In this document: positions 6,175 through 61,163 of the stretch, piece by piece | How positions within the stretch are numbered: the stretch's first letter is position 1 | Layout: the number at the start of each line of letters is the position of its first letter | DNA from: Simmondsia chinensis | Taxonomy: Eukaryota > Streptophyta > Magnoliopsida > Caryophyllales > Simmondsiaceae | Assembly: GCA_018398585.1 (NCBI GenBank) | Contig: JAGTTD010000015.1 | Span: 4,903,001 to 4,967,000 of the forward strand | Direction of reading: 5' to 3' | Length of the DNA: 64,000 nucleotides | Notes under the pieces: generated by a model | Seen by the model: the letters and a program-made list of their open reading frames with translations, nothing else | Database searches by the model: none | Told to the model about the DNA's origin: nothing | Program-made: the position numbers and the translations under genes

Positions 6175-6570
6175 TGTTGCATTCCCCATTCGAGCCGATG
6201 CTATTGAGGTCCAGTGTTGGCCTATAGATCATATCGGGTCGGCCCGACTCCCAGGCACATCAGTTCGAGGAGAGGAGGAAGGGTCCGATGGGGCCATAGC
6301 TTCTTTTGCTAGCCCGGGACAGAATATTAATTCTGCAGCAGCTGTGATTTACGACACATAAGTAGTGGATGATAATTTAGTATTTATCTAGCATTTTGCT
6401 CTAGCTAGAGTTTTTGGATGTTTTCTCTTCTTGTGTATCTATATATATGTGTGGATGCTCTTGAACAATGTAATGAAAAGCTTGCCATTTTCTCTCTCTT
6501 TAGCTTAATTTATTTCTCTCGTTATTGTTTTGAGATTTAATCCCCTAAAATATCTAGTGGGATTGCATCA
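6175..6570 (+). repeat. 5' LTR of gypsy element
   Basis: It begins TGTTGCATTCC and ends GGGATTGCATCA; the TG...CA ends are nearly inverted. The same 396-bp sequence recurs at 11772-12167. A TATATATATG stretch and an AATGTAATGAAAAG motif in the 3' half are plausible promoter and polyadenylation areas. Confidence 0.93.
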
Positions 6571-6571
6571 T

Positions 6572-6583
6572 TGGTATCAGAGC
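6572..6583 (+). other. Primer-binding site, initiator tRNA-Met type
   Basis: TGGTATCAGAGC starts two bases after the 5' LTR and matches the 3' end of plant initiator tRNA-Met, the usual primer for minus-strand synthesis in plant LTR retrotransposons. Confidence 0.9.
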
Positions 6584-6958
6584 TAATCGGTGCTCGGATT
6601 GTGGGTATAATGAACACCTGAAGTAGGGCTCAGGCGGAGCCACTAGCTGCACCACCAGGACCGAGGCCACCACCCCTACCACAGCCGGCGAACCCTCCCC
6701 CCCCCAAAACACCCTCCCAGCCCCACCCCAACCTTCCACAACCCTAACCCCCAACACCCCGACCCTCCCCTTCCCCACACCCCACTTCGCACCTTCCCTT
6801 ACAGCCACCCCCAACACCCAACCACCACCACAACCCTAACCCCCAACACCCCGACCCTCCACCAGCCGACCCACCACCACCAGCAACTTCCCTTACCGCC
6901 ACCCCCGCCACCCGCAGCACACCTCACCCAGACCCAACTACCCCCACCGCATGCAGGG
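6584..6958 (+). other. C-rich untranslated leader of gypsy element
   Basis: Very C-rich and A-rich sequence (repeated CCCCAACACCC and CCACCAC words) between the primer-binding site and gag. No convincing frame is present; the opposite-strand open frame at 6554-6817 is compositional. Confidence 0.6.
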
Positions 6959-8288
6959 ATGGAGAACGACCCTCAGAGCTCCATCAATGACCAGACCCAG
7001 CAAGCAATCAACGACATCCGACACATGATTGCGGGGCTCACTGCTCAGGTATCGATCCTAACCAACTCTTCAGGTCAAAATCGAAACCCTAACTCATTTG
7101 CTCACCCCACCGGGGCAGCAACAACATCCTACCCCCAGCCTTTGGGGTCGGACGCAACTTCAACGCCCTTCCGACGCGCCGGCGCCAAAGCTCCGGGCAG
7201 TATTCCGGTGTGGGATAGAACTATTAATTTTGGGTCTTACGGCGGCACAACCGGAGCCCCTATTCTGGGACCCGGAAACTCATCGTTAGGGTTTTCCCAA
7301 CACCCCACCCTTTCAATTCCAACCCCAACCATATCATTGTCATCCCTTCCCTTGACATCCAATTTTGCTCAATCGTCATATGCTAATGTCATACCTCAAA
7401 CCCCCCCTAGCGCAGGTTCAAGCGCATATAGACCCACCCCTCACCCTTTAGGGTCGGTCCCATTATTACCCCAACGACCTCTGACTGAACCTAGTTCTAT
7501 AGGTATCAATCCCAACACATTTCCCCATGACTTCTCACCATCCCCGAGCTCCAATCACCAATTATCAACAAGAATGGCCAAACTCGAATTCCCTCGCTTC
7601 ACAGGTAATGATGTACGAACATGGATTTATAAATGTGAACAATTCTTCCGAATTGATCGCATCGCAAATCATTCTAAACTTGAAATTGCCATTGCGCACA
7701 TGGAAGGTTATACTCATGAATGGTTCCAACACTTTATGCGTAAACACGGCCCATTTGTTATGTGGGACCACTTCAAAGTTGCCGCCCTCGACCGCTTTGG
7801 CGGCGCTTTCGAAGACCCTATGTCGGACTTACTAACTCTCCGACAGTCAGCCACTGTTAGTGACTACATGAATGCATTTGATAGTTTATACGCCCAGGTT
7901 CACTTGCCAGAAGATTATGCCATTAGTTGTTTTTTAAATGGATTGCGTGAGGAAATTGGCATGTCTGTCCGTTCTTTCCTGCCTCAAACACTTCACGACG
8001 CTATGTGTATTGCCAAACGGTAAGAAGTAGTTCTCAGTGCGCAACGACCTCGATCTTACCCACGCCTTTCTTTTCCCAACATGTCATACAACAGTCGACG
8101 CCCAAACCCCGGCACTTAGGCACCACCCGGACCCACGGCACCACGGCTCCAAGGGGGCCTCCCTCGACGCACATTAACTAGCGCCGAAATTGATGACAAA
8201 CGCGCCAAAGGTCAATGCTTCTATTGTGACAAGCAATATGTCTTAGGACACAAATGCACTGCAAGGAAGGGCCGTGGACAATTTTTCC
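6959..8288 (+). pseudogene. Ty3/gypsy gag (capsid + zinc knuckle), two nonsense codons
   Basis: Gag forms the virus-like particle and packages element RNA. Residues 1-210 are a Pro/Ser/Thr-rich N-terminal region. From about residue 210 (KLEFPRFTGNDVRTWIYKCE) the Retrotrans_gag capsid domain follows, ending near AMCIAKR. The frame then meets TAA at 8021 and TAG at 8117 but stays aligned through a zinc-knuckle-like motif, CFYCDKQYVLGHKC, at about 8217-8258, and continues straight into protease. Both stops fit single C-to-T changes of glutamine codons (inference). The start at 6959 is the first in-frame ATG before the capsid domain; it lies downstream of the C-rich leader. Confidence 0.85.
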
Positions 8289-8290
8289 TC

Positions 8291-10579
8291 GTGGAGGTTG
8301 ACACTGACCCACTTGATGATACGACCGATCCCATACCTGACCCTGAACCCAAGGACACCCCTACTATTTCTATACATGCACTTTTAGGGAACACTTCACA
8401 TCAGACACTTCGTGTTATTGGCTACCATGGCAAGCATGCCTTACATATCTTGATTGACTGCGGTGCCACCCATAATTTCTTGGATATTAATTTAGCTAGA
8501 AAAATACGATGCCCCATTTCCAATACCCAACCCTTTTACATCACCGTGGCCGATGGGGGTCAAATGCCCACCACCTCCTCTTGCGACAATTACGAATGGA
8601 CCCTAGACACCACGACCTACCACTCCGATATGATTCTTATCCCTCTTGGAGGGTGCGACATGGTGCTTGGATGCCCTTGGTTATCTCTTGTAGGACCCGT
8701 GTCCTTGGATATGAAACACCTCATTGCTACCTTCACACAAGGCGGTACAACGCACACTCTTCGTGGCCTCACCCACTACCGTATTCGTGAAATCGCTGCA
8801 CGCACAATGACTCGCACTTTAGACAATCCTCATAATTGTGGTACCATTTATACCGCCATTCTTACCTCAAATACACCAACATTTTTCTCCGTCGAGGTCA
8901 CTGCCTCACCAACACATCATCCTCCTGCCCTTACTAACCTACTTGACGAGTTCCAACTTGTCTTTAGCGAGCCGTCACACCTACGGCCATCCCGCCCCCA
9001 ATTTGACCATCGAATCCCACTTAAGGAGGGGTCCTTTCCGGTTAACTTATGCCCATATCGCTATTCTCTTGACCAAAAGAATGTGATAGAAAATATGATT
9101 TCGGAACTTTTGACAAAACATACCATTAGAGAGAGCACTAGCCCCTATGCCTCACCCGTTGTTTTAGTTAAAAAGAAAGATGGCTCATGGAGGATGTGTG
9201 TAGATTATCGTGCACTTAATGCCACCACTATAAAGGATAAATACCCAATTCCTTTAATCGATGAGTTGTTCGACGAATTGCATGGGGCCAAAATTTTTTC
9301 AAAAATTGATCTTCGATCTGGCTATCACCAAATCCGCATGCACGATAACGATATTTTCAAAATGGCTTTTCGCACCCATTCAGGCCATTATGAATTCGTC
9401 GTCATGCCCTTTGGCTTGACAAACGCACCTTCAACCTTCCAATCTCTCATGAATTCCATTTTTCGGCCTCATTTACGCCGTTTCGTCTTAGTTTTTTTCG
9501 ACGACATATTACTCTATAGTCCTGATTGGCAATTGCACATTACTCACCTTCACATGGTTTTTGGACTTCTTTTGCAAAATTCTCTCTATGCTAAACGTAG
9601 CAAATGTACTTTTGGTATGATTCAAATTGATTACTTGGGACATATCATTCGTGCGGGCCACGTTTCAACCGATCCGGCCAAAATTCAAGCCGTTCGTGAT
9701 TGGCCACTTCCAACAACACTTAAACAACTTTGTGGCTTCCTTGGACTGACGGGCTACTATAGACGTTTTGTCCAAGACTATGGGAAAATTGCCAAACCAC
9801 TCACAGAAATGTTGAAACACCCAACACTTGTTTGGACAGATGCGGCACGCACCGCCTTCGATCGCCTCAAAGAGGCCTTGATTTCCACTCCACTACTTGC
9901 TCTTCCGGATTTCACGATGACATTTGAAATTGAAACTGATGCCTCAGGCTTATGCATTGGTGCCGTTCTCATTCAAAAAGGCCACCCCATCGCGTACCTT
10001 AGTAAGGCCCTATCCCCACGTCATCAACACAAGTCCGTTTACGAACGGGAATTGTTAGCTGTGGTTCACGCTGTAAAAAAATGGAACCAATATTTAATGG
10101 ATCGTCACTTTTGCATCCGCACGGACCAACAAAGTCCTAAGCATTTATTAGAGCAACGCATTTCCACCCCCTTTCAACAACAGTGGCTAGCTAAACTCAT
10201 GGGTTATAGTTATGATATAGCTTACAAAAAGGGTAAAGAAAATGTTGTTGCCGACGCCCTTTCCCCTGTAACAAGTGGCGAATTACTATCACTCGCCCTC
10301 TCCACCATCTCCACCGACCTAATGTCTCAATTGCAACAATCATGGAACACTAACCCCCACTTTCAACGCATTATCAACGACCTTGTTCACAACCCACAAA
10401 CCCATCCACACTACACATGGACAAACAACCAACTTCGTAGGAAAGGCCGCTTAGTCATCGACCATGATAGTCCCGTCAAAACCCACATCATGACTTGGAT
10501 GCACGCCTCCCCTACCGCCGGTCACTCTGGAATTACACAAACCCGCAAACGCATTACTACTCTTTTTTTATTGGCGTAG
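8291..10579 (+). pseudogene. Ty3/gypsy pol: protease, reverse transcriptase, RNase H, start of integrase
   Basis: This 762-codon frame is in phase with gag. Aspartic protease: LIDCGATHNFLD at residues 54-65, with Cys in place of the usual Ser or Thr after the catalytic Asp. RT: YRALNATTIKDKYPIP, then FSKIDLRSGYHQI, MPFGLTNAPSTFQ and the catalytic FFDD near 9496-9507. RNase H: ETDASGLCIGAVL near 9933 and YERELLAVVHAVKKW. The frame ends just after the integrase HASPTAGHSG zinc-binding segment, where an extra T in the run near 10563-10569 moves the frame to a TAG at 10577. The family is unambiguous. The shift makes this copy unable to produce integrase. Confidence 0.92.
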
Positions 10580-10662
10580 ACTTAAAAACGATGTGACTAA
10601 CTTTTATTAAACAATGTCCCACTTGTCAAAAATGTAAATATGATTCCGCGGCATTCCCTGGG

Positions 10663-11958
10663 TTGTTACAACCCCTCCCTATTCCCGACTCCATTTGGAC
10701 TAGCATATCCATGGACTTTATTGAGGGACTACCAAAATCCCATGGCAAGGACGTCATCCTTGTCGTCGTTGACCGCCTAAGTAAGTATGCTCATTTCCTT
10801 CCTCTTTCCCATCCTTATACTGCTTTATCAGTTGCTAACATGTTTATGCGAGAAATACACAGGTTACACGGTCTCCCTGAGGAGATCATTTCCCATACGG
10901 ATCCTATTTTTACTAGCAACCTTTGGGAGGAACTTTATCGTATGCAAGCTGTCGATCTCCGTCGCTCGACATCCTATCACCCTCAAACTGACGGACAAAC
11001 GGAGGTGCTTAACCGTTGTTTGGAAAGCTACCTTCGTTGTATGTGTTTTGAATACGAAAAAAATTGGTTTGAATGGATACCATTGGCCGAATGGTGGTAC
11101 AACACTACCTATCATTCGGCCACACACGCTACCCCTTACGAGGTAGTGTATGGACAACCTCCACCGGTACATCTTCCATATTTACCGGGGCAATCTCACA
11201 ATGCCGTTGTGGACCGCAGCCTGCGGGTGCGGGAAGAAGCAATGAAGGTCCTTAAACACCACCTTCATCAGTCTCAAAACCGAATGAAGCAATTGGCGGA
11301 CCAACATCAAAGTGACCGCATGTTTAAACGAGATGACTGGGTGTACTTAAAACTGCACCCCTATAGTCAACACTCGGTTGAACGCCGAACGGTCCATAAA
11401 CTAGCCCCTCGTTACTGTGGCCCATTTCGAGTACTTGATCGTATCGGTCAAGTGGCTTATAAATTGGAGCTACTGGCGACTACCGCCATACATCCCGTAT
11501 TTCACGTCTCGCTGCTCAAACCTCACCATGGTGCCATCCCTCGCTCTCCCACATTGCCTCAAGACTGGGCTTCCCCGCTTGCTCCTACTGTTCCTGAAGC
11601 CATCCTAGATCGACGTCTGGCTCGATACTGCAATGCAGCCGTTACAAAGGTGTTAGTTAAGTGGAAGGAAAAACCCGCAGAAGACGCTACCTGGGAGTTC
11701 TTTCATGACATTCGGGAGAAATACCCGACATTTGACCATTGTGGGCAAGGGTCTTCCGGGGAGGAGAGTATTGTTGCATTCCCCATTCGGGCCGATGCTA
11801 TTGAGGTCCAGTGTTGGCCTATAGATCATATCGGGTTGGCCCAACTCCCAGGCACATCAGTTCGAGGAGAGGAGGAAGGGTCCGATGGGGCCATAGCATC
11901 TTTTGCTAACTCGGGACATAATATTAATTCTGCAGGGGCTGTGATTTACGACACATAA
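10663..11958 (+). pseudogene. Ty3/gypsy integrase core and chromodomain
   Basis: Continuation of pol after two 1-nt shifts; the second is in the CTTTTATTAA stretch near 10602-10607. The integrase Cys pair lies at about 10618-10635. The DDE core follows: MDFIEGLPKS (first D), SHTDPIFTS (second D; the usual form is SDRDPRF) and TDGQTEVLNR (E). GPY/F-like sequence near APRYCGPFRVLDRIG precedes a C-terminal chromodomain, AVTKVLVKWKEKPAEDATWE, at about 11635-11697, typical of chromoviruses, which use it to target chromatin. The frame runs 187 nt into the 3' LTR before stopping at 11958; the tail is probably not functional protein. Confidence 0.88.
11757..11770 (+). other. Polypurine tract of gypsy element
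   Basis: The purine-rich run GGGGAGGAGAGTA ends one base before the 3' LTR. It is the expected plus-strand primer site, and it lies inside the still-open pol frame. Confidence 0.75.
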
Positions 11959-16254: not shown

Positions 16255-16265
16255 GGCCCCCTCAA
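16255..16265 (-). other. Polypurine tract of copia element
   Basis: On the minus strand TTGAGGGGGCC lies directly upstream of the 3' LTR. It overlaps the last codons of pol. Confidence 0.75.
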
Positions 16266-18763
16266 TCTGATGGGGGAGCAGCCATGTGAAGATTGGATTT
16301 GTGGTAGTGGAACAGGGTTGGACCGAGACCTTTGGTGAAGATGTCCGCAACTTGACGAGAGGTGGGGGTGTAATGAACTTGGAGATCACCTTTGGGGACC
16401 TTTTCCTGGACATAGTGAAAATCAACATCAACATGTTTGGATCGATCATTTGAGATAGGATTGGCAGCCAGGTATGATGCAGAGACATTATCGCAGTAGA
16501 TGATAACGGGGCCGGTGTGCCGGAGGCCTAAGTCACGCATGAGGTAGCGAACCCAGGCTGCTTCAGCAGCTGCCTGTGAGACGGCCCGATATTCGGATTC
16601 AGTGGAAGATTTGGAGACCGTGGCTTGTTTCTTAGCTCGCCAGGAGATCAGGTTGGGGCCAAGGAACAAGGCGTAACCAGTGGTGGAACGACGCGTGTCA
16701 GGACAGCCACCCCAATCAGCATCAGCATAGACAGCAACAGAGGTGCAGATACCCGGAAGGATGGTGAGCCCATGATCAGGGGTGCTTTTGAGGTACCGAA
16801 GGATCCGCTTAACAAACTGCCAGTGACTAGTTCTGGGAGCATGCATAAACTGAGAAACAAGATTAACAGCATAACAAATATCAGGACGAGTCATGGTGAG
16901 ATATTGGAGAGCGTCGACGACACTTCTGTATTCTGTGGGGTCAGAGAGGAGGTCAACATCGGTTAGGGAACGATGGGTGCGAGGGGGTAAGGGGGTTTTG
17001 ATGGGTTTTGCATCTTGCATATTGAGTTTGGTGAGAAGATCAATGGTGTAACGATGTTGAGATAGAAAGAGGGAAGACGGAGTTCGGCGCGCCTCAATAC
17101 CGAGGAAGTAGTGTAGGGGACCAAGGTCTTTCATAGCAAATTGAGAGGAGAGGGTGTCGACAAGAGTGTCAAGGGACTGGGTGTTAGAGCCGGTTAAGAT
17201 GATGTCATCAACATATAGTAGTAAGCAAGTGACGTTGTTGGGGGTGCGAAGTAAAAAAAGAGAGGGATCAGCACGACAACAAGTGAATCCTAAGGTGTAG
17301 AGAAAGGTACTGAAGCGTTGGAACCAAGCTCAGGGAGCTTGTTTGAGGCCATAGAGGGCTTTGCGTAGGCGACATACGTGGTTGGGAAATTTGGGGTGAA
17401 TAAAGCCTTGCGGTTGCTTCATGTATACTTCTTCCTTCAGGTGGCCATGTAAAAAGGCATTTTTAACATCAAGTTGCTTGATGGACCACTTGTGAGTGAT
17501 AGCAAGTGTAAGGATGAAGCGGATGGTAGGAGGTTTGACAACCGGACTAAAGGTTTCCTTGAAGTCAATGCCTTCACGTTGGTGAAAACCTTGAGCCACA
17601 AGGCGAGCCTTGAATGGATCAACGGAGCCATCCGCTTTATACTTAACTCGATACTTCCTAGTGCTACCGACAATGTTGTTAGTTGGGTGCGGGGGGACGA
17701 GGTCCTATGTGTGATTATGAAGAAGGGCGTTAAATTCATCAGCCATGGCTGTTTGCCATTGTGGATTTTTGACTGCCTGAGAGTAACAAGTGGGTTTCTG
17801 TATGACTGTTATGGAAGAGAGAGACAAGGGATATTTTGTCTTTCGAATACCATCCTTGAGACGAGTTCGCATGGGGTGCACGTTGGTTGGCAGATTCATG
17901 GGGCCAGGGTCGGTGGGAAACTCGACCCGGATGTGTGGGGAGGGAGGTGCAGCAGCCGAAGCTGCCGGTGGTGGGGGAGAGGTGGGCTGGTCAGTGGGGC
18001 GTCGGGCAAGGTCTTCATGGGAGACCGTGGGTGTGATGGTGGGGCTGGGTGGACTCCAAGGGGAGGGGATAGGGGTGAAGCCCACCGCAGGTGGGGCAGG
18101 GGCTGAGGAGGGCTCGAGGGGGACAGGGGCCGGTAGTGGCGGAGCTCCGGGAGTGATAGAGATTATGAGAGGAAGGTTGACTATACTTGCGGTTGAGCCC
18201 GGTGGAGTGATATGTGTAGGGTTGACTAGTTCTGGGTAGGGGAAGCTAGTTTCATTGAACGTGATGTGCCTGTTTATGTAGACTTTATCCATTTGAGGAT
18301 CTAAGCACCTATAGCCTTTATGGCGGGCAGCATAGCCTATAAAAATGCATGGTATAGAGCGAGGTGCAAGTTTGTGTGGTGCATGAGGTGTGAGATTTGG
18401 AAAGCATGCACAACCGAACATGCAAAAACCGGAGTAGTTTGGTTGTTGTTTAAACAGTTTTTCAAACGGGGATAAGTTATTAAGCATAGGGGTAGGAAGG
18501 CGGTTAATAATAAAGCATGCTGTACAGGCAGCGTCATCCCAATGTGAGTAAGGTAACCGGGCTTGAATAAGTAAAGTCCGAGCCATGCCTATTACGTGTT
18601 GGTGCTTTCGTTCTGCCACCCCATTTTGTTGTGGGGTATCAGGACAAGAAAGGCGAAAGTGTATGCCATGTTGTCGGCATAGGTTGTTCATACGACGGTG
18701 ATCAAATTCACGGCCACCATCACTTTGAAAAATTTTTGATTTTCGTGGAAAATTGGTTTTCAA
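16262..18763 (-). pseudogene. Ty1/copia pol: integrase core, reverse transcriptase, RNase H
   Basis: One continuous reading phase interrupted by two stops. Integrase: SDGGREF and TPQQNGVAERKH near 18575-18725 hold the second D and the E of the DDE triad. A Pro-rich linker follows. TAG at 17705-17707 sits where NHT is normally followed by Trp. [21 protein letters not shown] near 17430, then TGA at 17330-17332 after ALYGLKQAP (the codon expected is Arg), then the catalytic YVDD near 17212. RNase H ends the frame: ADADWGGCPDTRRSTTGY, SKSSTESEYRA and DIFTKGL, closing at 16262. Family assignment is certain; the copy is dead. Confidence 0.9.
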
Positions 18764-19685
18764 CTAGTGCTTTAAATGTGACAAAGATATCAAATACTTC
18801 GGATTTATGTTGCATAGGGTATAACCATGTAAAGCGAGTAAAATCATCAATAAAGTTAACATAGTATTTGTAACAGGAGTTTGACGCTACAGGAGATTGC
18901 CATACATCCAAATGAATTAAATGCAAAGGCGAAGAAGCTAAATGTAAAGCACGTTGAAAGGGAAGTCGGTGAGACTTTCCTAAGTTACAATGTTGACAAA
19001 AATCAGTAAAACGAGAACGAGGAATCAGTTTTTGAGAACACAGAACATTTAACACAGGTTGCCCGAGATGCCTTAACCGTTGATGCCATAGGTTTCCAGA
19101 AAGAGTTTGTGCCATGAGGCCGGTGTAGTGGGGTGAAAGATTGTAAAGTGGCCCATTACTGCGAAATCGAAGCAGAGGGATCCCCGTAGCCTTGTCCTTG
19201 ACAGAGAAAAATTCAGAGTCAAATTCAACAGTGCATGAGTTATCTTGACATAGTTGTTTTATGGATAATAAATTATGGGTGAGTTTGGGAACCAACATAA
19301 CATTGTTAAGTTGAAAAGGACGCATTTTAGTTTGTAAGGTAGTGGAACCAATATGACTAACAGGTAGTAAAGCACCGTTCCCAACTAAAACTCGTTTTTG
19401 ACCACGGTAAGGAAGAGTAGTGCGAAGCATACCAGAGTTGGGTGTCATGTGATTGGTTGCGCCGGAGTCAGGATACCAATTGTAGTCTTGAGATTCGGTG
19501 ATGGACATAGCAGCAAGGGAATGCGAAGGATCTGGAAAGGATGCATGATCAAAGCGGTGGTAACATGATGCAGCACTGTGACCAGGCTTATGACAGATTT
19601 GGCAGGATACCGGTGCAGGGCCGAGAATTCCAGGTGTGGGTGGGCGTGCCTGTGGTGGGTTGGGGTTGTTGGGTCCTGTGTTATG
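18720..19685 (-). pseudogene. Ty1/copia zinc knuckle, protease, pre-integrase and integrase N-part
   Basis: In phase with gag beyond its TAG. A zinc knuckle, CQICHKPGHSAASC, lies at about 19565-19610, followed by aspartic protease WYPDSGATNHM near 19450-19485, the GAG-pre-integrase motif LWHQRLRHLGQ near 19080-19110, and the first integrase Asp in LIHLDVWQSP near 18890-18920. The frame fails in an AAAAATTTTT stretch near 18730-18740, where one base shifts it out of phase with the SDGGREF segment that follows. Confidence 0.88.
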
Positions 19686-21001
19686 CTATTGATTCTGGCC
19701 CCCAGAGCGGCCCCCTCGATTGCCACGGCGATCGTTGTTACGGCCCTTACCTCGACCACGACCCCCACGACCAGAGTTTGACCCTTGGTTACTTGTATTT
19801 GAAGCAACTAAAGCATGTTGTGGGTCAGTGGTGGTGCAGCCCTGGTATCGGCTTTGGGCACTTTCTTCATTAAGCAAGTCAGTTTTTAATTTTTCAAAAG
19901 TAGGGGTTGGAGTGGTTTGGCGAGTTAAAGTAGCAAAAGCGGCATATTGAATAGGAAGCCCATAAAGGGCGTAATGTACTAGTTCTCGATTGGAAATTGG
20001 GGAGTCTATAGCAGCTAGATCATCAACGACGGATTTTAGTTCCGAAAGGTATTGTTGCATTGTTTTGCCATCTTTCTTTAAAGTGGTTAGTTGGGACCTC
20101 AGATCATATTCCTTGGCCAGCGAGTGGTCTCGGAATCGTTTGACAAGGGCATCCCACATGGATTTTGATGTGGGTTGTCGAACAGTATCGTTTAAGAGCG
20201 GGCGAGAGAGTGTTGCAGAAATACAAGATCTGAAACTTTGGTCAGTACGGACCCAATTTAAATAGTCCGGGTTGGGGATGGAGGAGCCAGCACTGTTTAA
20301 TATATGAGTTGGGGGACAGAGGAAAGAACCATCAATGTAACCCATGAGTTGATGGGATATTAAAAGTATGTAAAATTGTTCTCTCCAGGCGGTATAATCA
20401 GTAGCATTTTCAAGTTTTATCGTTATTATACTGGAGATATTAGAAAGGGGAAGTAATAAAGGTTGATTTGTAGTATGAGTTAGGTTAGGGTTTAAAAGAG
20501 GGGTTGTGGGGAGGTGAACACCAAGGGGTGCTGGCTGGTCAGACGCAGCGGCAGCGGGTCCCCACCCATGGTGACTGTACGGTACAGCCGAGTGGGTCCC
20601 ACCGGCGAGCGGGTGGTCGGGGGTTGCAGCGGGGAAGGGTGGGAGTTGAGAGAGGCCCGACCAGCGGTGGTCACCATTTCGAAGGGCGGCACCGGAGGTC
20701 GATTGTAGGGGGAAGGGGGGGAGGGAGGTTGGGATGCCCGAGCCAAAAAATTGAGAAACTTGTGGCCTCGTGGTAACTAACGAAGTACCGGAGATGGAAA
20801 CACCGGCATTAGTTAGACCATTGAGGGGTAGATCCAAGGTCATAGATCCGATATGGGGAAGATCGGGTATGACCATGGAGGAACCGGACACCTGACATTC
20901 GACCGAAGCACCGGCATATGGAGAGCCGGGTTCGGCCGGAACAGGGGCTGCCGGCGCTAGGTAGGGGAACGTGCGGGGGGGGGGGGGGGGGGTGCTGCCA
21001 T
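19686..21001 (-). pseudogene. Ty1/copia gag
   Basis: The likely start is the ATG at 20999-21001, giving MAAPPPPPP encoded by an 18-19 nt G run (C on the coding strand) at about 20974-20992. The length of that run puts the start out of frame with the main gag frame. The N-terminal 230 residues are Pro/Ser/Gly-rich. The UBN2-type capsid domain runs from ITIKLENATDYTAWREQFY to ALYGLPIQYAAFA, and a Gly/Arg-rich RNA-binding tail (SGRGGRGRGKGRN) precedes TAG at 19686-19688. The stop fits a C-to-T change of a Gln codon. Confidence 0.87.
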
Positions 21002-21161
21002 AGATCTTAGGTAAATAAAAAACAGAGAAAAAAAAAATTGAAGAGAGAGGAATGAAATTGATGCGGAAAAAAAAATGAAAAATAATAACCAATTGAGAAC
21101 TAGTACTTTAGACAGGAAAAGAAAATTAAAGAGAAGCGAGAAGAGGAGAGTCTCTTTGAGA

Positions 21162-22292: not shown

Positions 22293-22413
22293 TTAGGACA
22301 AAAGCTATTATTATAAAAAAAATAATACAATTTATAAATAATAGGAATTATAAAATTGCCTTAAAACTATGATTATATACTCTAACAATAATAATTTTGC
22401 CATATCAAAAATA

Positions 22414-22668
22414 CAACAAGAACAATAACAGATCCAATACCTCAAAAGCTTCCTCATAAGCAGGGTCTGGGAGGGATGAATGTATGCAATCTTACCTCTT
22501 CAGGGTGTAAACCTGCTGAGAGGTCGTTTTCGAGGACCCCCAATCTTATAGGGTAGGCAACACGAGGATGTCCCATGAAGTCACCCATTCTGGTACTACT
22601 CTCACCCTAACACGCTTAACTTCAGAATTCTAATGGGATCCAGTGCCTTAGTGCCTGTAAATGAACCC
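22414..22668 (-). mobile_element. 5S rRNA-headed SINE, full length (copy A)
   Basis: The element is 255 bp, flanked by a perfect 17-bp duplication, TTGCCATATCAAAAATA (22397-22413 and 22669-22685). Read on the minus strand, the first about 119 nt follow plant 5S rRNA from end to end: GGATCCCATTAGAA, AAGTTAAGCGTG (box A), GAGAGTAGTACCAG, ATGGGTGACTTC (box C) and CTCGTGTTGC near the 3' end. A body with CCCTGAAGAGGTAAGATTGC and CCAGACCCTGC follows, then a GTT-rich tail. The long TSD and the tail mark target-primed retroposition, not an LTR element. It keeps the full 5S 3' end, unlike copies C-E. Confidence 0.9.
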
Positions 22669-22721
22669 TTGCCATATCAAAAATATTACCTGAATATAAT
22701 CATACTTAATAAAATATTGAA

Positions 22722-26335: not shown

Positions 26336-26435
26336 TATTTATACTAAAGACAGACGCGGATCATAATGAATTAGGATTTGTATTAGCATGTTTCCCTATT
26401 GCTTACATGCTTGAGCTTACACCTTTTAAATAGTA

Positions 26436-26675
26436 AAGCAACATTCCTAGTGCCCCAAGGGCTCCCGCCTAAGCAGGGTCCCGAGGGAGGGGGTGGATGT
26501 ACGTAACCTTCCTCTTTCAGGATGAAGGGAGGCTGTTTTCGAGAACCCCGAACCTGAGGGTTGCAACACGAGTACTTCCCAAGAGATCACCCTTCTTATT
26601 ACTACTCTCGCCCAAACATGCTTAACTTCAGAGTTCTAATGGGATCCAGTGCTTACGTGTTAGTACCCTCTTAAG
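26436..26675 (-). mobile_element. 5S rRNA-headed SINE, full length (copy B)
   Basis: On the minus strand a full 5S head (GGATCCCATTAGAACTCTGA, AAGTTAAGCATG, GAGAGTAGTAATAAG, CTCGTGTTGC) joins the body GGTTCGGGGTTCTCG...CCTAGTGCC region (read from the plus strand as GGGCTCCCGCCTAAGCAGGG). Flanking AAATAGTA occurs at 26428-26435 and 26676-26683; this 8-bp match is weaker TSD support than for copies A and E. The tail is short, ATGTTGCTTTA. Confidence 0.8.
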
Positions 26676-27188
26676 AAATAGTATACACCCAATTTTTCCC
26701 TTTCTCAAGAGTGTTGCTTACAAGCTAGAGCTTCCAGCTTCAAGTAGTATACACCCAATTTTTCATGTTTCTTTGCTTAAGAATTGCATTGGACCAAAGA
26801 TCCAACCGTCAACTACGCCTCCAGTTGTTAATTCAGATGGCTCCATGCTAGCCGAGTCCTTGGCAAGTTTTCAATTTCTCAAGAGTCGAATCCCTAGTCC
26901 TTAGTTGACTGAGGTGAAATATGATGAGGAGCTGATGAAATTACCTTAAATATTTTTCCATTAGTGACTGTTAGAAGCTGAAAGGCGCGAAAAGCTATTA
27001 AGAATCGTTAAATGTAGATTTTTGTACCTCTTTTCCGTTATTTTTCATAAATTTCCATTATTTCGTTTTGTAAACACTATAAATAGGGTTAGAATCACCC
27101 TTGAAAGAATTTGATTAATAAAAATTACTTTTGTTTTCCTTTTGATTCCATCTGTTCCTTGCAATTTCTCCTCTCCCTCTCTCTCCCC

Positions 27189-27441
27189 CCAAAGAGGGTA
27201 CCAACACGCTGTCACTGAATCCCATTAGAACTCCGAAATTAAGCGTGCTTGGGTAAGAGCAGAACCAGGATGAGCGACCTCCTGGGAAGTCCTCACCCTC
27301 TGGTTGAGGACACTCGGAAACAACCTCTCTTCAAAAGTAATACCCTCAAAAGGGAAAGCTGCGTACATCCGACCCCCAAACCCCGCTTAGGCGGGAACCC
27401 TTGGGACACTGAGTATGTTGCTTTGCTTTGCTTCGCTTCTT
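27189..27441 (+). mobile_element. 5S rRNA-headed SINE, full length (copy C)
   Basis: The 5S head begins near GGGTACCAACACGC and includes GAATCCCATTAGAACTCCGA, AAATTAAGCGTGCTTGGG, CAGGATGAGCGACCTCCTGG. The 5S 3' end is shortened (AAGTCCTCACCCTC). The body and the tail TATGTTGCTTTGCTTTGC follow. The pyrimidine-rich target gives an 11-bp duplication TCTCTCTCCCC (27178-27188, 27442-27452), which is low-complexity and so only fair evidence. Confidence 0.8.
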
Positions 27442-31454: not shown

Positions 31455-43941
<12,487 letters not shown>

Positions 43942-48744: not shown

Positions 48745-48920
48745 TCTCGAGAGTAGTGCCAGGATGAATGACCTCCTGGGAAGTCGTCACCCCTCAGGTA
48801 GGGGGTACTTGGAAACAACCTCTTTTTAGGGTAGCACCCTGAAGGGAGAATGCTGCGTACATTTCCCCCCAAACCCTGCTTAGGCGAGAGCCCTTGGAGC
48901 TAGCACTGAGAATGTTGCTT
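48745..48920 (+). mobile_element. 5S rRNA-headed SINE, truncated inside the head (copy D)
   Basis: The 5S head begins only at the CGAGAGTAGTGCCAGGATG region and includes ATGACCTCCTGGGAAGTC. The junction is the shortened type (GTCGTCACCCCTCAGG). The body (GAAACAACCTCTTTTTAGGG, CTGCGTACATTTCC) and the tail AATGTTGCTTT follow. It shows truncation within the 5S part. Confidence 0.8.
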
Positions 48921-49083
48921 TATGTCAACCAAAAAAATATATAGAATGATTGATGAAAGATGCTTTCTTTTAAAATAAATAAAATCTTAAGGTGGGAATA
49001 TGTTTACCATTGAAACAAACAGCAAAAAAGCTAAAGTGGAATTAGGGGATATTGTTTTTCAGGGGACATTGTTATGCTGGTCC

Positions 49084-49332
49084 CAAAGAGGGCACCAACA
49101 CGCCGTCACCGGATCCCATTAGAACTCCGAAGTTAAGCGTGCTTGGGCGAGAGTAGTACCAGGATGGGTGACCTCCTAGGAAGTCTTCACCCTCAGGTTG
49201 GGGGCACTGGGAAACAGCCTCTCTTTAGGTTAATATCCTAAAGGGGGAAGGCTGCGTACATCCGCCCCCCCCAGACCCTGCGTAGGCGGGAGCCCTTGAG
49301 GCACTGGGTATGTTCCTTTTTTCCTTTCCTTT
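49084..49332 (+). mobile_element. 5S rRNA-headed SINE, full length, best preserved (copy E)
   Basis: ATTGTTATGCTGGTCC (16 bp, perfect) flanks 249 bp at 49068-49083 and 49333-49348. The head starts AAAGAGGGCACCAACAC and keeps 5S landmarks almost unchanged: CGGATCCCATTAGAACTCCG, box A AGTTAAGCGTGCTTGGGC at 49131-49148, GAGAGTAGTACCAGGATGGG and box C GGTGACCTCCTAGGAAGTC at 49167-49185. The 5S 3' end CTCGTGTTGC is missing at the junction. Body: GGAAACAGCCTCTCTTTAGG, AAGGCTGCGTACATCCGC, CCAGACCCTGCGTAGGCGGG, GGCACTGGG. The tail is TATGTTCC plus T/C-rich. The intact promoter boxes and TSD suggest it is the youngest copy here. Confidence 0.92.
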
Positions 49333-49497
49333 ATTGTTATGCTGGTCCGATATTGTAGGTTGTGTTGGTTCAATATTGTTGGTTATTCCCCATTCGGTGC
49401 TTTAGGTGTTGAGGTGTCTTGTGGGTAGTCTATTTGGTTCGAATCATATGTGTGTCTAGTTGATTGTTTTTCGTTCATTTTATATGAATAAATTCTC

Positions 49498-51593: not shown

Positions 51594-52620
51594 TCATCTC
51601 GGAGGGTAACCTATCAACTCCAAACACCGCTCTTTGGTGTGCCCCTCTTTCTTACAATGTGTACAAGTAGACCGATTAAAGCGACGAGAAAAATTCCCCG
51701 ACATCGGGGCAGCTGCGGCAGTAGTAGTGGTTGCTGTTTCGGCAGTCAAAATCGCTGCCTCGGGTACAATAATAGTCCCAGCAGCCACGTTTTGCTATTT
51801 CTCTTCCTGACACAAAACAGAGTATGCATTTACCACTGAGGTTAAAGGCTTAGTGTTCATTAACTGAGACCTAACCGTGAAGAAAGAGACATTTAATCCT
51901 ATTAACAAGTCTAAAAGCCTTTCCATATCACAAATTGCTGAAAAAGCTTGTCCGGACCCGCAAGTACAAGGAGGAATGGCAACCAATGTATAAAGCTCGT
52001 TCCACAAGGATCTTAATTTTGTAAAATAGTCAAACACATACAGATTTTCCTGCTTTAAGTGTGAAATTTCACGCTTAATTTTATAGATCCGAGGAACATT
52101 TTCTTGTGAGAAGAGCTCATTTAAATCCAACCAAATATCATGGGTGGTTTCAAAATAAGCTACGCTAGCATTGATTTCTTTCGAAACCGAATTAATAAGC
52201 CAAGAAGAAACCATTGAGTTGCAAGCACTCCAATTTTCAAAATCCAGAGAATTCTCATCCGGTTTAACAATGCTTCCATCAAGGAAGCCAATCTTGCGTT
52301 TAGCTTTAAAAAACTTCAAAAATCGACCGTCTCTATGCAGGAAAATTAGGACCAATCAAAACTTCTTGAACAAACACAAGCCCTGGATGATCCAACAACA
52401 ACAACAACAGTCTCAGTGCCACAGGGGCTCCCGTACGAAGCAGGATCTGGGGGGGTGGATGTATGCAGCCTTCCCCCTTCCGGGTGGAAGAGAGGCTGTT
52501 TCAGAGGACCCCCATCCTGGATGATCCGATGGATGTAAATAATAGGGAGAGTTAGCATCTAGAACTCCCCCAGAAACAACAATTGGTGCCTCAACTTGAT
52601 TGATATTTTATTCCGACACT
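51594..52620 (-). pseudogene. Ty1/copia gag remnant, split by a SINE
   Basis: From the right: ANSPYYLHPSDHP-type N-terminus near 52520-52570, the SINE (52394-52515), then the capsid frame 51795-52355 (KIGFLDGSIVKPDENSLDFE, WLINSVSKEINASVAYFETT, YFTKLRSLWNELYTLVAIPP) and, after one TAG near 51792, the zinc knuckle CTHCKKEGHTKERCLELIGY near 51603-51665. It is a Retrotran_gag_3 type copia gag, a lineage different from the other two copia elements. There is no pol: the element is truncated left of 51594. Confidence 0.8.
52394..52515 (-). mobile_element. 5S/TS-type SINE, 5' truncated, inside copia gag
   Basis: CCTGGATGATCC (12 bp) flanks it at 52382-52393 and 52516-52527, interrupting the conserved HPSDHPG segment of gag. 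Minus-strand body: GGGGTCCTCTGAAACAGCCT, GGCTGCATACATCC, CACTGAGACTGTTG plus a GTT tail. No 5S head. Confidence 0.85.
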
Positions 52621-54754: not shown

Positions 54755-54889
54755 TCTCATATTGGGGGTCCTTAGAAACAACCTCTCATCAGGGTATCAC
54801 CCTGGAGGGATAAGGCTGTTTACATCTCACCCCTCCTAGAACCTGCTTACGCAGGAGCCCTTGTGGCACTGGGTCTGTTGTTGTTGTTC
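54755..54889 (+). mobile_element. 5S/TS-type SINE, head lost, inside gypsy RT
   Basis: Body: GGGGGTCCTTAGAAACAACC, GGGATAAGGCTGTTTACATC, CTTGTGGCACTGGG and a GTT tail. The flanks CTCTTATATACT (54743-54754) and CTCTTTCATACT (54890-54901) match at 10/12. It splits the RT frame right after HGYHQVSM. Confidence 0.8.
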
Positions 54890-55029
54890 CTCTTTCATAC
54901 TAACTTGATGATAGCCATGTCTAAGATCTATCTTAGGAAAATGCTCAGATCCACATAATTCATCAAGAAGATCATCAATTACTGTTGGAATTGGAAACTT
55001 TTTCTTGATGGTTAAGTCATTCAACCTCC

Positions 55030-60433: not shown

Positions 60434-60596
60434 GTTGTTTTTATGCTTTCATACTTCTCAAGTTGAGGGTCCTCAGAACTAGCCTCTAGTAAGGGTAACA
60501 CCTTCAAGGGGTAAGACTGTGTATATCCCACCCCTCCCAGACCCTGCTTATGGGGAAGCCCTTGAGGCATTGAGTCTGTTATTGTTGTTGTTGTTG
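60434..60596 (+). mobile_element. 5S/TS-type SINE, head lost (CacyBP first visible intron)
   Basis: TCACCAGTGAG (11 bp) flanks it at 60423-60433 and 60597-60607. Body: AAGTTGAGGGTCCTCAGAAC, GGGGTAAGACTGTGTATATC, CCAGACCCTGC, GGCATTGAG and a GTT tail. The 5' about 20 bp do not resemble 5S. Confidence 0.85.
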
Positions 60597-61163
60597 TCAC
60601 CAGTGAGTTGTTACATAGAATGCCAATAATGTAGCTTTAGATGCAAACCCCCTTCACCCACCTTCAAGCCACATCACCACACCCAACCATCAAACTTTTA
60701 CATTTTTGATGCACATATCTAGTTGGTCTTCCCTAAGCTTCAAATTTTCGACTCATAAGTCCTCTTATGCATGATTTCCACATATGTTGTCACCGCCTCA
60801 ACACATGCAGGCGCGTGCACACACAAATATATACCATGAATTTTTTTAATATATCTACACTAAATAAATGTAACCTTTAAAATATAAATACCTCTTATAT
60901 TTTCTTTACATCAAAAATTGCCACGCGACTTAGTTTATGCACATTCTTAGTGTATGTACATCAACCCTCTCTATATATGTACCTATTGTACATAAACCCT
61001 CTCTATATATGTAACTATTATAAAGATCACTATGTAAACCACGCAATCCTATCTCATAATCCACTACGTAATAGCTGTTATATACAACGATCACTATTTT
61101 GGGATTTGAGGGTTTCAATATCGTAGTCTTATAACCCACAAAATAGGAACTAACAGTAGTCAA
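60597..61163. other. Intronic/intergenic, nothing recognised
   Basis: AT-rich sequence. CCCTCTCTATATATGTA is repeated at about 60967 and 60999. No coding. Confidence 0.4.

Follow-up and report, generated by a model that had tools for sequence, protein, structure and literature searches.

SINEs with heads derived from 5S rRNA are known from animals as SINE3, and 5S-related SINEs have also been described in Aspergillus fumigatus. SINE3 elements are reported to have arisen on several occasions (PMC10886601). The element analyzed here resembles SINE3 in its 5S head with an internal promoter, its LINE-derived 3′ end and its lack of coding capacity, and differs from it in host: the named SINE3 cases come from animals and a fungus, whereas the present element lives in a plant and has a head that matches plant 5S. 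The springhare SINE Ped-1 combines a 5S head with a LINE partner of the RTE clade (BovB/RTE) (PMC3747384), a combination probably found here as well, but in an unrelated host and with an unrelated LINE, which makes it a convergent analogue. In tobacco TS, the ~100 nt at the 3′ end, which terminate in TTG repeats, are almost the same as in an RTE LINE (PMC3747384). A 3′ body common to a SINE and an RTE LINE, with TTG repeats, is thus the point of likeness to TS according to that account, and the difference lies in the head, which is tRNA-derived in TS and 5S rRNA here. Au and the Angio-domain superfamily we take to be further plant SINEs with a conserved 3′ body and tRNA-derived heads. Cassandra TRIMs are likewise plant retroelements with a borrowed 5S promoter (PMC10853983); they are LTR elements carrying the 5S sequence inside their LTRs, in contrast to the present copies, which have long target-site duplications and no LTRs seen.

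A 2023 review attributes nearly all plant SINEs to tRNA and recognizes a single plant SINE superfamily (PMC10741241), a 2024 paper on Cassandra gives animal SINEs as the known gain of such genic promoters by retroelements (PMC10853983), and the AnnoSINE paper notes, in a general way, a 5S rRNA origin for the heads of some SINEs (PMC8825457). No plant 5S-headed SINE was found in the passages retrieved from the full-text literature searched, outside which lie most subscription papers including that on the Angio-domain. What would be new here is the plant host, 5S-headed SINEs being already known in animals and a fungus.

The whole stretch of Simmondsia chinensis DNA that was analyzed, called the window below, is 64 kb long. 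We consider it very likely that its 5S-headed copies belong to a plant SINE family mobilized in trans by a LINE, probably of RTE type, of the same genome. With moderate confidence at best, we further favor an abundant 5S-headed lineage that arose by direct fusion without a tRNA-headed ancestor and has been active with only its promoter core conserved.

Copies in the window and across the genome

Copies A, B, C, and E of the window have 5S rRNA heads at Rfam significance, all four scoring above the RF00001 gathering score of 38 (49.1-67.6 bits), which confirms the 5S head on a shared body that a sequence-only reading of this DNA had reported. Copy E, a full-length copy of the young type on the plus strand (49084-49332), consists of a 5S head (49084-49193; RF00001 at 49088-49195, plus strand, 67.6 bits) and a LINE-derived body (49194-49332; body-profile match with E = 3.1e-43 in the window scan). 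It is flanked by the target-site duplication ATTGTTATGCTGGTCC, the 5′ copy of which (49068-49083, plus strand) is identical at 16 of 16 positions to the 3′ copy (49333-49348, plus strand). Copy A, of an older type and on the minus strand (22414-22668; RF00001 at 22670-22552, minus strand, 55.7 bits), starts with GGGT directly after its duplication, like the host 5S gene at +1, has the 5S end GTGTTGC and GTT units in its tail, and lies between perfect 17-bp duplications at 22669-22685 (5′, minus strand) and 22397-22413 (3′, minus strand). The limits that the sequence-only reading had set for E and A are exactly the spans between these duplications, whose perfect 16 and 17 bp it had also described correctly.

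The intermediate copy B (26424-26676, minus strand; RF00001 at 26676-26558, minus strand, 63.1 bits) likewise runs from 5S into the body, and a confident target-site duplication was sought around it and not found. Copy C (27188-27441, plus strand; RF00001 at 27188-27305, plus strand, 49.1 bits) is of the young type and diverged, its only candidate duplication being an 11-bp repeat within low-complexity flank. The truncated copy D (48748-48927, plus strand) retains the last 45 nt of the head, followed by the body (head profile E = 3.2e-8, body profile E = 2.6e-36). The body is thus present in all five copies, A to E, and occurs without a detected 5S head at 10 further places in the window, some of them short fragments. 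Elsewhere in the window, long frames at 6959-11958 and 16262-21092 look by eye like proteins of Gypsy-type and Copia-type LTR retrotransposons.

Across the genome (831 Mb in 35 contigs), a search with copy E gave at least 39 other near-full-length copies at 94-97% among the 40 of 2,884 first-look candidates that were scored. The best 28 matches (L001-L028, E included) were examined for flanks and duplications, counting only duplications that adjoin the 5′ end of the element with at most two mismatches and using paired flanks of different copies as the control. Target-site duplications of 14-23 bp are present in 22 of these 28 best-matching copies compared with 0 of 28 mismatched-flank controls, and the same search gave no confident duplication for the other six. 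The 200-nt flanks of the 28 copies hold no LTRs and no recurrent sequence; they gave four matches in all, two between different loci (19 nt and 39 nt) and two within single loci. In the latter, L023 and L024, sequence from upstream of the element recurs on its downstream side, along 60 nt (97%) and 74 nt (84%), respectively; these repeats are far longer than the usual duplication and represent either an extended duplication or an element inserted in a local repeat. A second head occurs in only two of the eight 3.2-kb stretches L001-L008, namely L001 (copy D) and L005 (a copy on the opposite strand).

The rows of 27 of the 28 best matches deviate by 0.4-3.8% from their majority sequence, a range outside which stands the L005 row, taken from the older, neighboring second copy. 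Because these 28 copies were chosen as those most similar to E, this low divergence describes the youngest layer only and not the whole family. Nine heads were detected in a random sample of 24 stretches of 10 kb each (240 kb, of which 232.5 kb are called bases), drawn from 13 contigs out of 35; in all nine, as in five of five in the window, the body follows within 7 nt, so the pairing of head and body is not due to chance. Scaled from these nine heads, the copy number is ~32,000 (Poisson 95%: 15,000-61,000), with the sample somewhat biased in that its contigs are those known to carry young copies. Two junction patterns searched in IMG/VR gave no matches.

The 5S head and the LINE-derived body

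The best 47 of 51,838 first-look candidates for host 5S fall into two tandem arrays on contig C8 and one match on contig C29, and four array genes served as the host 5S reference. The arrays, at about 4.69 Mb and 6.41 Mb, hold different gene variants with periods of mostly 420-440 bp. The match on C29 (L057, G000:C29:34924600-34925000) is a lone 5S-like gene of 111 bits; 120 nt downstream of it, body positions 1-24 match very weakly (6.2 bits, E = 0.005), in an alignment cut off where the stretch ends. Aligned to host 5S, as the sequence-only reading had proposed, copy B matches without gaps over positions 12-119 (93 of 108) and copy A over positions 12-114 (86 of 103). The majority sequence of the young copies has 16 differences from host 5S in positions 1-25, none in 26-78 and four in 79-107, and the young-type head lacks 8 nt of the 5S 3′ end. 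As in SINE3, the 5S-derived head is at the 5′ end and includes box A, IE, and box C, which by their usual limits lie within 5S positions 50-97.

All four host 5S genes read have A81 and T95, whereas plant 5S generally has G81 and C95. The non-host letter is found in 10 of 14 heads at site 81 (G, against four with the host letter) and in 10 of 14 at site 95 (C, against three with the host letter). The capture of the 5S sequence may therefore be older than the host changes at these two sites, an argument weakened by copy B, which agrees with the host at sites 79, 81, and 95. At site 79, T stands in the host 5S and in plant 5S generally, but C is present in 11 of 14 heads, including all five of the A-type and six of the nine others, which points to a single origin of the head.

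The body consists of the final ~140 nt of a LINE that the same genome carries and that has a reverse-transcriptase domain and a (GTT)n tail; the element thus shares its 3′ end with a partner LINE as SINE3 does. In one such LINE, L050, a 136-aa frame (6321-6728) precedes the 3′ UTR, the body, and the (GTT)n tail; the last 420 nt of L050, used as query, gave at least 39 other copies at 87-93% among the 40 of 4,611 candidates scored. A second, L054, has the same order of 3′ UTR, body, and (GTT)n behind a 258-aa frame, the end of the RT frame, with an RVT_1 match that barely passes the cut-off (30.2 bits against 29.6). The bodies of A, B, E, and one further A-type copy show 70-85% identity to four LINE ends (gaps uncounted), and the alignments start at most some 6 nt from the junction with 5S. 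For E and L050, 115 of 145 positions agree with a score of 75, compared with 15 for the best of 50 shuffles.

The partner LINE is probably of RTE type, an assignment based on the form of its 3′ end, the insertion signature, and sequence motifs. With the longer LINE frame as query, two homology searches gave no homologue at 1e-3, and the shorter LINE pieces had no match above cut-off in Pfam. A 70-aa piece of the LINE matched 22 proteins, and all 12 of those with organism names are from plants. Three of the matched proteins (P0002, P0009, P0016), from orchid records and with names such as isoleucyl-tRNA synthetase and ataxia telangiectasia mutated family protein, contain LINE-like C-terminal pieces and are probably gene models extended into a LINE.

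Headless bodies and the proposed direct fusion

Two of the headless bodies in the window, at 36822-36961 (plus strand, with a (GTT)n tail) and 54759-54897 (plus strand), match the body profile with E = 2.4e-40 each, have no duplication found, and are taken as truncated LINE 3′ ends. A third (60459-60598, plus strand) has the duplication TCACCAGTGAG 25 nt upstream of the body, a fourth (52387-52519, minus strand) has GGATCATCCAGG at the very start of the body, and a fifth (39898-40054, minus strand) has a 16-bp duplication 11 nt upstream. At 36822-36981 and 36986-37134, two headless bodies adjoin in opposite orientation. We tested 16 headless bodies, 11 from the sample and five from the window, a set that excludes shorter fragments and L049-L052. 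Duplications with a score of at least 11 were found in seven of the 16 but in none of 32 mismatched pairings, and the seven 5′ ends are all different, lying 14, 28, 32, 127, 25, −4, and 11 nt before the body. A tRNA-headed SINE would give one common end, so these varying ends lead us to read the headless bodies as truncated LINEs. The 16 include one truncated young-type SINE with the end of the head kept (L048:7518) and two bodies, L029 and L041:258, that may be truncated A-type SINEs.

Three types of 5S-headed copies can be distinguished. In the A-type, the head ends in GTGTTGCCAACCCTTATAAG or close to it and the tail is of GTT; in the B-type, the head ends in GTGTTGCAACCCTCAGG; the E-type is the B-type minus eight bases of the 5S end. 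The fusion point of the A- and B-types is nearly identical, 5S GTGTTGC being joined to LINE AACC. A template switch with microhomology would fit this joint, as TTGC and the AACC-like letters are common to 5S and LINE, and the proposal of an exact jump onto the last 5S base is softened by the same shared letters.

The sequence-only reading had explained the element as a chimeric plant SINE in which 5S rRNA replaced the tRNA head of a TS/Au-type element, or else as a convergent fusion. A plant 5S-headed SINE family is what the data bear out; the exchange of a tRNA head is not supported. The body motifs of Au are presumably similar to those of the present body, and this speaks for an older tRNA-headed SINE with the same body. 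Tobacco TS, which is tRNA-headed, has the same kind of body (PMC3747384). Against such an exchange stand the LINE present in the same genome, whose 3′ end is the body, the differing 5′ ends of the headless bodies with duplications, and the outcome of the tRNA searches, in which Rfam found none in the window or at nine sampled headless-body loci (L049-L052 lying outside the scan) and ARAGORN none in the window. Where TS and Au have a tRNA-derived head, these copies have 5S. We therefore regard the head swap as unlikely, and the data are explained better if 5S was fused directly to the 3′ end of the LINE: the body is a LINE end, the headless 5′ ends differ, and no tRNA-headed version was seen, although a tRNA-headed ancestor may have been lost. 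That the copies could be Cassandra-type LTR elements or fragments of tandem 5S arrays is suggested by the 5S promoter in Cassandra LTRs of many plants (PMC10853983), but we give this practically no weight. The sequence-only reading had itself named LTRs with 5-bp duplications, or tandem 5S arrays without a constant junction, as outcomes that would contradict it, and neither was found for the copies examined. Instead of two LTRs with 5S and 5-bp duplications, the copies have duplications of 14-23 bp and unrelated flanks, and they are dispersed as SINE3 copies are; instead of head-to-tail units with a spacer, all 14 detected heads join the LINE body at a constant junction, and the true arrays lie elsewhere, with no body found in the two C8 array stretches read.

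In the body tree, calculated without one L005 row, a single clade (99/99) unites the ten rows of B/D/E-type, and the five of A-type fall among other bodies, as would be expected had 5S been fused independently to two LINE subfamilies, one giving the A-type and the other the B/D/E-type. Forcing all 5S-headed bodies into one clade is 17 log units worse, yet the p-AU of 0.060 does not reject it at 0.05, and the value rises to 0.363 when two ambiguous short bodies are counted as truncated A-type. The nearly identical fusion point of the A- and B-types also argues against two events, and the sharing of C79 between the types makes them less likely, so two independent fusions seem to us a doubtful, though not negligible, alternative to one direct fusion.

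Proposed mechanism and meaning

A bias in the insertion sites is seen in the 22 copies with duplications, of which 16 have T at −10 and 16 have T at −9, compared with 4-12 at each remaining position between −16 and −1. For RTE LINEs and SINEs of legumes, a run of T some ten bases before the duplication has been described, together with SINE ends of Tn and LINE ends of (GTT)n (Nakatsuka and Ohshima, PMC13295347). The T excess at −10 and −9 is as in this description of the legume elements. Most of the young copies studied here end in T-runs and the old copies in GTT repeats. TTTT is absent before position 234 in 27 of 28 young copies, and it is absent from the element and the next 25 nt in eight of the 28.

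The junction suggests that a reverse transcriptase working on LINE RNA may have switched onto 5S rRNA near the 5S 3′ end. RNA polymerase III is predicted from the sequence to start at 5S +1, with box A, IE, and box C as its internal promoter, and to stop in the T-run at the end of the element. The LINE protein would then recognize the shared 3′ end, and the copies were probably inserted by target-primed reverse transcription. The outer parts of the head would have eroded over time, to the point that in the young type the first ~25 nt have diverged and 8 nt of the 3′ end are missing, while the promoter core would have been kept, as the unchanged 5S positions 26-78 of the young majority indicate. 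If this is true, one can follow from old to young copies how a complete 5S gene was reduced to a promoter that still works.

One practical consequence may be that SINE copies are mis-annotated as 5S genes or pseudogenes. By the sample estimate, natural variants of the 5S internal promoter number in the tens of thousands in this one genome, which also has its true 5S genes. The element is also a candidate for the kind of source from which Cassandra obtained its 5S promoter, an origin for which insertion of a SINE3 has been proposed (PMC10886601). The presence of a type-1 (5S) promoter in a plant SINE of high copy number would mean that the same route to a polymerase III promoter works in plants.
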